Source: Sulfuriferula sp. AH1
GTDB lineage: Bacteria; Pseudomonadota; Gammaproteobacteria; Burkholderiales; Sulfuriferulaceae
Direction: 5' to 3'
DNA length: 64,000 bases
Assembly (NCBI RefSeq): GCF_002162035.1
Contig: NZ_CP021138.1
Span: forward strand, 1,860,001 to 1,924,000
The notes under the pieces were generated by a model that saw nothing but the letters and a program-made list of their open reading frames with translations, made no database searches and was not told where the DNA came from. Shown piece by piece: positions 11,597 through 60,077 of this stretch (positions are counted from its first letter, which is position 1; each line of letters begins with the position of its first letter). Made by a program: the position numbers and the translations under genes.

Positions 11597-12583
11597 ATGC
11601 CCAACCTCACAGGTTTATCCGATCCCTTCGGCCGCCGTATCGAATATCTGCGACTCTCCGTCACCGATCGCTGTGACCTGCGTTGCAGTTACTGCATACC
11701 CGAAGATTTTCGCGATTTTGAAGAACCTGCACACTGGTTGAGTTTCGATGAAATCGAGCGCCTGCTGGGTGCCTTTGCCCGGCTGGGCCTGCAGCGTATC
11801 CGCATGACCGGCGGCGAGCCGCTGTTGCGCCGCCACCTGCCCCAGCTCGCCCAACGCATCGCCGCCCTGCCCGGCATCAATGACCTGTCGCTGTCCACCA
11901 ACGCCACCCAGCTGGATAAACACGCCGCAGCGCTCAAAGCTGCCGGCGTCTCCCGGCTCAACGTCAGCCTCGATTCATTGCACCCGGAGCGCATCAAGGT
12001 CATCACCGGGCGCGATGCGCTGCCGGATATTCTGGCCGGTCTGCAACACGCCAGACAGGCAGGATTCTCCCCCATCAAGATCAACATGGTCGCCATGAAA
12101 GGCACCAACGACGATGAAATCGATGACATGGTCGCCTTCTGTATCGAACAGGGCTTTACCCTGCGCCTGATCGAAACCATGCCCATCGGCGCCACCGGAC
12201 GCAACAGCGCCTATCTCGACTTGCAGCCAGTCAAAGCTCGCCTTGCCAAGCAGTTCGGCCTGATCGATGCCACATTCCACGGCGCCGGCCCGGCGCGCTA
12301 TCTGGCAACGCCAGACGGCGCATTCTCGGTAGGCTTCATCACCCCGATCTCGCAACACTTCTGCGAGACCTGCAACCGCGTCCGATTATCGGTAGACGGC
12401 ACGCTGTACCTGTGTCTGGGGCAGGAAGACAAATTCGAATTCCGCCCGCTGTTACGCGGTGGTGCAACCGACAGCGAGCTGGAAGACGCCATCCGCCTTG
12501 CGCTCACCCACAAGCCGGAACGCCATGAATTCCGCGAACAACCCGAAAAGATCATGCGCTTCATGTCGATGACGGGTGGTTGA
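11597..12583 (+). CDS. moaA: GTP 3',8-cyclase (radical SAM)
   Basis: MoaA rearranges GTP to 3',8-cyclo-GTP, the first step of molybdenum cofactor synthesis. The radical-SAM cluster motif 'CDLRCSYC' lies at residues 26-33. The second cluster is near the C-terminus: 'FCETCNRVRLSVDGTLYLC' supplies its cysteines. 'RMTGGEPLLRR' follows the SAM-binding strand. The protein ends in Gly-Gly (MTGG), the tail that MoaA needs for activity. At 328 residues it matches the family. It is divergent from mobB and stands alone; no moaC or moaE follows within the window. Confidence 0.98.
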   Translation: MPNLTGLSDPFGRRIEYLRLSVTDRCDLRCSYCIPEDFRDFEEPAHWLSFDEIERLLGAFARLGLQRIRMTGGEPLLRRHLPQLAQRIAALPGINDLSLSTNATQLDKHAAALKAAGVSRLNVSLDSLHPERIKVITGRDALPDILAGLQHARQAGFSPIKINMVAMKGTNDDEIDDMVAFCIEQGFTLRLIETMPIGATGRNSAYLDLQPVKARLAKQFGLIDATFHGAGPARYLATPDGAFSVGFITPISQHFCETCNRVRLSVDGTLYLCLGQEDKFEFRPLLRGGATDSELEDAIRLALTHKPERHEFREQPEKIMRFMSMTGG

Positions 12584-12783
12584 AAAGCCTAGTCCACGAA
12601 AGACGCGAAAAGCATGAAAAAATCTCTCTGCAACAACAAAGACTGACCGGCACGACCAAATCAAAAAGTCACGCGTTTGCGCTAACTCCAAACTTGCTAC
12701 ATAGCTAGGCCAGACCCCAAGTTTTCCGAATTTTTCATTCATCGCAATGTTTAAGCAATACTACAACTGCCATCATTAAAGGC

Positions 12784-12990
12784 CGGGGGCAGCCCGGCGG
12801 CTGGTATCTTTCTTTTGCTTGCCCAAAAGAAAGGTACCAAAGAAAAGGGCCCCCCGTTCCGCCGCCCCGGCGGGGTCCCCTGCGTTGCTCGTCAATCCGG
12901 GCGGCTGCGGAACTCGGCCCAAGGGCCTCAGACAGTCCTCGCCGACATCCCCCGGCTCGACTGCGCTACTCGGCGGTGGAGAGGGGATTT
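12784..12990 (+). repeat. Left arm of composite inverted repeat (diverged unit)
   Basis: This unit begins 'ccgggggcagcccggcggc' and is a diverged inverted relative of the unit at 13063-13340. Shared blocks include the GCCCGGCGGC core, a hairpin with the same loop, CCAAAGA, GCGGAACTCG and a CTCGCC block. Its hairpin pairs 12803-12817 with 12824-12838 (15 bp, one mismatch) around the loop CTTGCC. The boundaries at the inner end are approximate. Confidence 0.75.
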
Positions 12991-13017
12991 TAAAAGCGGA
13001 AATTCAAAAACTAACCA

Positions 13018-13040
13018 TTGTCCGGGCAAAGCCCGGACAA
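13018..13040. repeat. Perfect 10-bp hairpin between the two repeat arms
   Basis: The stem TTGTCCGGGC (13018-13027) pairs with GCCCGGACAA (13031-13040) around the loop AAA. It has no T-run after it on either strand, so it is not a standard terminator. It sits at the centre of the inverted composite, between the left arm and the right arm. Confidence 0.7.
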
Positions 13041-13062
13041 ACAAAACTTAATAAATCCGTCA

Positions 13063-13340
13063 CGCGCTTGCGCGTAACTCCGCGCCTTTAATGCTTTTCT
13101 CCCCTTCTGCATCGCTTCGTCCGGGCCGTTCAGGCGGGAGGGGTAGGCGAGCACTGTTCGAGTTCCGCAGCAGCTTGCGGGGTGTGCAAGCTGTCAGGGC
13201 GAGTTGCGCAGCCCCCGCCTGAACGGTTCGGACGAAGGCACCCCGAAGGGGCGAAGCTGTAGGGTGCCGTTCTCTTTGGTTACTTTCTCTTGGGCAAGCA
13301 AGAGAAAGTCACTTGCCGCCGGGCAACCCCCGGCCTGACA
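13063..13340 (-). repeat. Right arm of composite repeat, copy A of a 278-bp dispersed element
   Basis: This 278-base unit recurs in the same orientation at 59660-59937 with five mismatches by eye and no gaps. Inside it, 13115-13138 and 13214-13237 form a 24-bp inverted repeat with two mismatches (core CCGTTCAGGCGGG). ACTTTCTCTTG (13282-13292) pairs perfectly with 13299-13309 around the loop GGCAAG, which is the complement of the loop in the left arm. It is read here as minus because it is inverted relative to the left arm. No transposase is nearby, so any mobility would depend on enzymes encoded elsewhere. Confidence 0.85.
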
Positions 13341-13406
13341 CAACTAGACCTGACCCCATGCTTTGCCCGGCAGTAATTGTAGTGGTCATGATTATTTCCT
13401 TGTAAA

Positions 13407-14200
13407 TTATTTATCTTGATGTTCAGTATTCGGAGTGCACCCAATTCGCATATTTGCGTCATTTGACGAGCATTCCCCGTCTCGCATCATGCGTCCAATA
13501 GAATTCTTCCCTAGCCCAACCCAAGCCCCTTTGTAATAAATCAAATTCATACACGAGGTGTTTGAATACCGCCCGGATGTAGGCGCGTGAAGAATGAAGT
13601 GGTATTCGGGCTGAACAAAACTACTGTTAAGTTTCTGAATTCCCTCTGGCGCAATGCGTGACTGGCGTATCAGGTCGTCTTCATTACCCTGTATCACTAA
13701 ATTAATTCTGGTTAAGTCAGCAGGGAATTCGGATAAAGGAATGCGCTGCCATGCATCGCCATCGTATTTAAAAAAACATAAGGTGGATTCGGTCTGCCCC
13801 ACTTGTTATATGAAATACAAAGATTGGGCGAGGTCACCAGATAGGGTGTGCCGTTTTCCACATGCAATGCCAGCAAATCAAAATTGGCATGCCCAATGTC
13901 CTCAGTCGTCTTGTCTTCCCAGCTGATGGTTTTATCTGTGCCCGGCAAAATAAAGCTCAGGGATTGTTCCTTGATAGGTGGCGGCTGTCCAATTTCGTGA
14001 CGACCGCCATAACTTTGCGATCGGCTAACCAGTATCGTACTGCCATCATTCTGCAACGCCTCTTCCTTCCAGCTCGTACTGCCGAAGCCGAATAGTCCTG
14101 CATTAGCATGCTGAATCGTCCCCAATACCAAGACCAGCCCTATAGCGGCGAACAGTTTCAACCACCAATCTTTGTTATCCACGTCATCCCCTATTAGCAT
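13407..14200 (-). pseudogene. Secreted conserved hypothetical protein, split by a frameshift
   Basis: Two minus-strand reading frames form one protein of about 265 residues. The 5' part has a hydrophobic export signal ('LKLFAAIGLVLVLGTIQHA') and continues to 'SYNKWGRPNPPYVF'. The 3' part resumes at 'FKYDGDAWQRIPLSEFPADL' and ends 'CTPNTEHQDK'. The frames meet at seven T on the coding strand (13770-13776); one extra T would join them. The cause could be a real mutation, a sequencing error or slippage. The start is uncertain: ATG 14200, or GTG 14182, which has AGGGG upstream. From memory, similar uncharacterised proteins occur in other Proteobacteria; no function is known. The gene directly follows the flavoprotein gene and borders the composite repeat. 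Confidence 0.7.
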
Positions 14201-59659: not shown

Positions 59660-59937
59660 CGCGCTTGCGCGTAACTCCGCGCCTTTAATGCTTTTCTCCC
59701 CTTCTGCATCGCTTCGTCCGGGCCGTTCAGGCGGGAGGGGTAGGCGAGCACTGTTCGAGTTCCGCAGCAGCTTGCGGGGTGTGCAAGCTGTCAGGGCGAG
59801 TTGCGCAGCCCCCGCCTGAACGGTTCGGACGAAGGCACCCCGAAGGGGCGAGGCTGCAGGGTGCCGTTCTCTTTGGTTACTTTCTCTTGGGCAATCAAGA
59901 GAAAGTTACTTGCCGCCAGGCAACCCCCGGCCTGACA
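59660..59937 (-). repeat. Copy B of the 278-bp dispersed element
   Basis: It matches 13063-13340 without gaps and with five mismatches by eye, all in the last third. The 24-bp internal inverted repeat is retained, and the hairpin ACTTTCTCTTG / CAAGAGAAAGT is retained with a loop change (GGCAAT). Unlike copy A it has no inverted partner arm beside it. Confidence 0.88.
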
Positions 59938-59944
59938 GGGCTAC

Positions 59945-60077
59945 GATCTGCTACATAGCTAGACCAAACCCTAAGTTCTTCTTAATCCATAATCATGGTG
60001 GGCCATCACAACTATCATCACTAGAGACCGAGTAACTCGATCTAACATGACTAGCGATCTGCCACAGAACTAGACCA
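59945..60077 (+). repeat. Imperfect 22-bp direct repeat beside copy B
   Basis: GATCTGCTACATAGCTAGACCA at 59945-59966 recurs at 60056-60077 with three differences. A closely related motif stands at 12688-12722 left of the composite element, and a shorter CTAGACC form at 13344-13350 right of it. These may be the outer ends of the repeat family. Confidence 0.55.

Follow-up and report, generated by a model that had tools for sequence, protein, structure and literature searches.

Hairpins serve as recognition signals in IS200/IS605 elements and in REP/RAYT systems. REP/BIME/REPIN repeats consist of palindromic units that are dispersed and paired in inverted orientation, and a tail-to-tail bias was reported for repeats of P. 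fluorescens (PMC2718517), which the consulted part of that paper described without sequences to compare. In the present study, we found a family of repeats with the same paired inverted palindromic units, dispersal and tail-to-tail bias. Unlike REP/BIME/REPIN repeats, the unit in the window analysed here is about 200-280 bp long and carries a pseudoknot, and no link to a RAYT (Y1_Tnp) gene was required, because PF01797 was missing from 18 of the 87 genomes bearing the motif. MITEs are likewise short, non-coding, multicopy elements with inverted ends, whereas no target duplication (by eye), empty site or parent transposase was found here. The H-type pseudoknots of telomerase RNA and the SAM-II riboswitch contain a major-groove triple helix with the same kind of triplet, and we take them to have the same topology as the pseudoknot of this element. 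The likeness did not extend to any demonstrated sequence relation, and the element differed in being a dispersed repeat, in its longer stem, in its C.G-C and G.T-A triplets and in its location at element ends. Triplexes are listed in telomerase RNA, riboswitches and stability elements in the consulted part of PMC8704770. Few families of triple-helix RNAs are known. In the present family, comparison of many diverged copies allows each base triplet, including those at inverted pairs, to be read from evolution, which provides a natural data set for triple-helix rules. Searches of the open-licence literature with fragments of the element returned no prior description, and text searches likewise returned nothing relevant.

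The window is the whole stretch of 64,000 nucleotides that was analysed. It contained a composite element at 12780..13340, in which two related units were inverted and the folded strand of each read outward. A previous sequence-only reading had described two related units facing each other, and self-comparison of the window confirmed an imperfect inverted repeat with arms 12780-12879 and 13237-13336, which were 77% complementary; by alignment, the left and right units were indeed related. The feature given there as 12784..13340 was real, and its start was moved about four bases outward. The left unit (minus strand) covered 12780..12987, with an approximate inner limit, since matches in two genomes (G012, G051) were confined to query positions 6-213 or 10-213. 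The right unit (plus strand) covered 13063..13340 and also occurred alone at 59660..59937 (plus strand, 98% identity over 278 bp). Just beyond the left end of the composite (12695-12723) and outside the second copy (59949-59977) lay two occurrences of a 29-base sequence, which were 90% identical.

Both hairpins were found at the bases reported by the sequence-only reading. The left stem, S1, paired 12803-12817 with 12824-12838 around the loop CTTGCC (12818-12823) on the minus strand. The right S1 spanned 13278..13313 on the plus strand and paired 13278-13292 with 13299-13313 around the loop GGCAAG (13293-13298); its best part was the 11 bp of 13282-13292 with 13299-13309. The stems of the two units differed by compensated changes, CTTTCTTTTG/CAAAAGAAAG against CTTTCTCTTG/CAAGAGAAAG together with flanking pairs, so that both sides of the diverged stems had changed as claimed. 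On its outward side, the folded strand of the right unit ended in a terminal hairpin, P0 (13318..13334, plus strand; 13318-13323 with 13329-13334). Comparable hairpins of unrelated sequence were seen by eye outside S1 in other lineages. P0 was not followed by the T run of an intrinsic terminator, and the sequence from 13335 read CTGACACAAC (by eye). In units of the Sulfuriferula type, the terminal hairpin region (13314-13335 in the window, and its equivalents) allowed two overlapping pairings, GCCGGG/CCCGGC and NNGCC/GGCNN, and the NN bases of the latter seemed by eye to covary. The absence of coding capacity probably also holds: the ORFs of at least 60 aa inside the element were short (78 and 90 aa) and are regarded as probably spurious. 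The composite was situated between convergent genes, a moaA-like radical-SAM gene ending at 12583 (plus strand) and an ORF at 13407-13802 (minus strand), the gene names being assigned by eye.

In addition to S1, a second helix, S2, was detected, in which the last four loop bases (as read on the plus strand at the left unit) paired with a downstream tetranucleotide, giving an H-type pseudoknot. In the right unit all four pairs were formed, between TGCC at 13265..13268 (plus strand) and the loop GGCA at 13293-13296. The left unit scored three of four: 12848..12850 (minus strand) formed 3 bp with loop bases 12821-12823, and the fourth position, T12820-C12851, was not a pair. Copies from this genome and its relatives were then compared, as the earlier reading had suggested; 38 were picked from 66 candidate cores, leaving out near-duplicates and visibly broken copies, a choice that favoured a good score. 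In these copies, 95.0% of the cells of the whole structure (S1 and S2) were paired, compared with 84.3% in shuffled alignments (reached in 0 of 500) and 40-52% in slid controls. Changes on both sides were observed in 11 of 19 pairs, compared with 5.2 in the shuffles, and none of five measures was reached by any of the 500 shuffles. For S2, 98.0% of cells were paired, two-sided changes occurred in all four pairs, and the variants covaried (TGCC:GGCA, TCGC:GCGA, TGTC:GACA, TGCA:TGCA, CGGC:GCCG and TGGC:GCCA). The large excess of paired changes in copies elsewhere supported the suggestion that an RNA or DNA structure is under selection, and covariation revealed the interleaved helices expected of a triple-helix H-type pseudoknot. 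Because S2 was first spotted by eye in some of these very sequences, the validation on further copies described below is important. RNA folding compared with dinucleotide shuffles gave z-scores of -1.88 for the right end (9 of 200 shuffles as good) and -2.88 for the left end (1 of 200), values that are modest alone and come from a fold that cannot score a pseudoknot or triplex; the decisive evidence for the predicted structure is comparative and not folding energy. Four findings go beyond the sequence-only reading: that loop and downstream bases pair, that the third strand covaries, that the element is dispersed and that it is linked to TwoAYGGAY RNA.

The linker between S1 and S2 mirrored the purine arm of S1 in all major variants (AAGAGAA, AAAAGAA, AAAGAAA and AAGAAAA). 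On the outward strand this corresponds to a pyrimidine linker in parallel orientation to the S1 purines, T facing A and C facing G. The left third strand, 12839..12846 on the minus strand, read AAAGAAAA on the plus strand; on the strand that folds it was 5'-TTTTCTTT-3' and ran parallel to the stem purine arm AAAAGAAA, with 8/8 triplet matches. The right third strand (linker L1), TTCTCTTT at 13270..13277 on the plus strand, was parallel to the stem purines AAGAGAAA and also matched 8/8. The second copy at 59660-59937 retained S1, S2 and the third strand TTCTCTTT (8/8). For a wider comparison, 257 matches were collected from 100 chosen loci and the best 150 were aligned; 135 were distinct, and 130 of these were kept after five had been excluded under the S1/S2 criteria. 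The 901 cells from these 130 copies (seven positions each) comprised 700 T.A-T, 157 C.G-C, 10 G.T-A, 1 C.C-G, 1 T.C-G and 32 others. Where the arm carried an inverted T-A pair, the linker base was G in 10/10 cells, at three positions and in five families (G374/G299, G189, G202, G031 and G213), compared with 11/891 of all other cells; where the arm carried C (two cells), the linker had C once and T once. The identity of the third strand to its prediction was 0.948, compared with 0.781 after shuffling (sd 0.010, maximum 0.818, 2000 shuffles), and with the 26 distinct patterns it was 0.780 compared with 0.679 (0/5000). These results indicated a third strand that is Hoogsteen-complementary and parallel to the purine arm.

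For validation, 56 loci from the phylum and order searches were considered, of which 14 from earlier-searched genomes were left out and 42 used; two of the 42 (G207, G024) came from genomes searched before and were absent from sets A1 and A2. From the 79 matches we excluded 17 partial ones, 7 from three loci whose genomes were already in the discovery set and 2 that duplicated discovery rows; of the remaining 53 distinct sequences, 43 were kept under the same S1/S2 criteria and 10 were dropped. In the 43 copies, third-strand identity was 0.914, compared with 0.711 after shuffling (sd 0.020, 0/5000), and T-A inversions carried G in 3/3 cases. S2 was paired in 162/172 cells, S2 pairing itself being among the inclusion criteria. 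C.G-C also appeared at linker positions 1 and 2 (L303, L306). Eleven G.G-C cells do not fit the triplex model and count against it; most were at position seven, the end point of short linkers. The geometry of a 15-bp stem with a linker of about 8 nt was likewise counted against the model. An alternative in which the third strand pairs with the opposite arm of the stem was rejected: by eye it explained two variants (7 bp) and not AATAGAAA/AACAGAAA or AAGAAAA/AAGAAAA, and the parallel triplex was preferred because it fits all these variants. The mirror could also be taken for an antiparallel triplex of purines on the inward strand; this was judged less likely because the bases at inverted pairs fit the pyrimidine motif. 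The reference list of PMC10609763 includes Griffin and Dervan (1989) and a 1992 PNAS paper, the titles of which name the inverted-pair triplets G.TA and T.CG. According to the consulted part of PMC10609763, the in vitro third-strand triplet code was worked out with DNA. Collectively, comparison of the copies showed the two predicted helices and covariation across three strands, and a single strand very probably folds as a triple-helix pseudoknot.

The mismatches pointed to the strand that folds. On the outward strand, the lower stems carried 67 G.T and 8 A.C mismatches (79 distinct lower stems), and S1 in the validation copies carried 38 G.T and 1 A.C cells; the few S2 mismatches leaned the opposite way (5 A.C, 1 G.T). 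The outward strand is very probably the folded one. The folded molecule is probably RNA rather than DNA, which was favoured because TwoAYGGAY is a catalogued RNA family and G.T is strongly tolerated in S1. Hairpins upstream of the knot, read on the outward strand, contained 58 triloops, of which 31 were GNA (27 closed by C-G) and none was TNC. GNA loops are unusually stable in DNA, and this preference leans to single-stranded DNA.

When the whole element was used as the query, 21 of 61 genomes contained relatives. The composite arrangement itself was present, at 79-85% identity, once in one genome (G013, locus L010) and twice in another (G014, loci L011 and L030). The window flanks 12600-12790 and 13330-13420 had no match in these two genomes at E 1e-3, and the 37 bases beyond the second window copy did match G013. 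The exact core pattern was present in at least 119 stretches, with hosts that included Dyella, Pseudomonas, Dokdonella, Burkholderiales, Sulfuriferula and Psychromonas, among others. A covariance model with S1 alone paired (R1) detected the core in 87/370 genomes of the window's class, 71/200 of its order and 32/219 of its phylum, nine of the last in one family outside the class; the three draws of genomes overlap. A megaplasmid of the Fusobacterium Ilyobacter polytropus (pILYOP01, L187-L196) carried nine R1 matches at eight places; six knot cores shared the top score, and the repeat around the core was AT-rich, unlike the other copies and unrelated to them in sequence. A contig recorded under a Klebsiella pneumoniae MAG (L103) carried two units like those of Burkholderiales and is perhaps misbinned. 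Inverted pairs with starts less than 1 kb apart, counted by hand, accounted for 10/11 copies in G374, 16/24 in G299, 4/5 in G274, 6/12 in G334, 8/16 in G168 and 2/8 in G013. With short queries, which limit sensitivity, no match was found in phage or E. coli and no exact match in viral contigs, and plasmid matches were confined to Ilyobacter, one Aeromonas and three Pasteurella records. Phage or plasmid cargo was rejected on the lack of phage and viral-contig matches and the few plasmid records. Comparison of genomes thus showed dispersal of what appears to be a non-coding family over Proteobacteria and at least one Fusobacterium.

The neighbourhood of the copies was examined with 122 core hits in 119 named loci, of which 76 had both neighbours and 46 were left out. 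Convergent neighbours flanked 38/76, compared with 17.2% of other neighbouring pairs (p 6e-11), and in 52/76 the inner-side gene and the folded strand read in one direction; the genes were called by an ORF heuristic, the loci were mostly from Dyella and Pseudomonas, and related copies are not independent. A cruder count gave 21 convergent among 38 usable hits, compared with 22%. Convergent placement is compatible both with a location in 3' UTRs and with sites that simply tolerate insertions. These results raise the question of why a three-stranded fold is retained in dispersed bacterial repeats, which often lie between convergent genes, and of what mobilises these repeats.

The best reading, to which we assign a probability of about 0.6, is a mobile non-coding element whose RNA is made mostly as the 3' part of a neighbour-gene transcript and ends in a triple-helix pseudoknot. 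The outward strand of each unit would consist of the 5' tetranucleotide of S2 (e.g., TGCC), a pyrimidine linker of about 8 nt, S1 and P0. S1 would be 10-15 bp long with the S2 partner in its loop, and the linker would lie parallel to the purine arm of S1 through T.A-T, C.G-C and, at inverted pairs, G.T-A triplets. In transcripts arriving from the neighbouring gene, the knot near the 3' end might block 3'-to-5' decay or a moving enzyme, and the transcript could thereby be protected or punctuated. This role as a 3'-terminal block, by end protection or as a roadblock, is our tentative preference at less than even odds; it rests on position and on the known major-groove triplexes in RNA stability elements.

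The main rival to the RNA role is that the strand functions when folded as single-stranded DNA, with the knot at each end being a recognition signal for a trans-acting transposase or other nuclease. We consider it possible and rather doubtful. The composites look mobile, with folded ends outward and the frequent inverted pairs noted above in G374 and G299, and both the GNA triloops upstream of the knot and the DNA origin of the triplet code are in line with it. Y1_Tnp was also commoner in motif genomes (69/87 compared with 170/283, p 9e-4). Against it, TwoAYGGAY is catalogued as an RNA, and the 18 motif genomes without a Y1_Tnp match include the single-contig genome G374, which has 11 copies; a necessary dependence on RAYT was rejected on these 18 genomes, although the association remains significant. 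The window's genome had one weak Y1_Tnp match (E 9.7e-6). No autonomous copy was recognised either: the ORFs of three loci with longer pairs (L243, L244, L245), read by eye, included no recognisable transposase. In L243 (808-2671), two units 1.8 kb apart flanked a 258-aa ORF and a 117-aa ORF, the latter GIY-YIG-like by eye. No empty site was readable at the window locus among 18 genus genomes, or for the G299 region in 11 genomes among the matches listed. A repeat of about 270 bp inside a G299 composite (L292, 2003-2278), with dozens of other copies in that genus, is apparently another repeat family that had inserted. A broader version, in which the knot would be a signal that protects and mobilises the element's own single-stranded RNA or DNA, TwoAYGGAY RNA would be one cargo version and the whole would form a large class of mobile elements, is speculative and on balance unlikely; so is its companion claim that a natural parallel triple helix may be evolving under the in vitro third-strand code (T.AT, C.GC, G.TA and perhaps T.CG).

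A second rival treats the units as small RNAs that titrate CsrA through AYGGAY loops, with the knot only stabilising the 3' end. TwoAYGGAY RNA (RF01731) is rated 'y' (probably) as an RNA in a table of Weinberg 2010 (PMC2864571), and the consulted part of PMC4333381 states that it matches a CsrA-binding motif and suggests CsrA binding; further papers refer to the family in passing. RF01731 matched the outward strand 5' of the knot, 1 to about 45 bases away, in several lineages (Psychromonas L058, G374 L226 and G299 L232), and weakly in L063 and L105. The model has 168 positions, and its match in L058 ended before the knot. Of 30 loci fetched with RF01731, 24 were read by eye; 15 had the knot downstream and nine did not, one of these being cut by a contig end. 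At E 1e-4, RF01731 was present in 18/370 class genomes (14 over the family cut-off), compared with 87 for the knot; the two occurred together in 11 genomes, i.e., 11/87 with R1 compared with 7/283 others (p 5e-4). These results suggest that some members of this Rfam family, which has no known function, have a 3' domain. Two further TwoAYGGAY loci (L269, L273) were followed by what looked by eye like a pure T.A-T knot, and the genome of the latter (G205) had no R1 match. CsrA was found in 80/87 motif genomes, yet also in 242/283 motif-free ones (p 0.14), and CsrA (PF02599) had no match in the window's genome (G000) or in six other motif-bearing genomes. The window itself had no RF01731 match at the gathering threshold or up to E 2. 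The sponge was rejected for the window on the missing CsrA and TwoAYGGAY matches, and as a general role it is improbable. Neither Y1_Tnp nor CsrA is required, because each is missing from some of the motif genomes.

Selection of a purine mirror repeat for an intramolecular triplex in duplex DNA (H-DNA) would account for the mirror-symmetric purine tracts, which are its requirement. It has no need for the loop-downstream pairing, the hairpin arm or the one-strand bias of G.T over A.C, all three of which were observed, and is very improbable. Neutral ancestry, in which changes are common to related copies and no structure is selected, is scarcely credible: the shuffles correct incompletely for relatedness and the 38 rows were chosen, yet the slid controls keep relatedness and drop to the 40-52% given above, and G.T-A recurs at three positions in the five families and in one further family in the validation (G617, L306).
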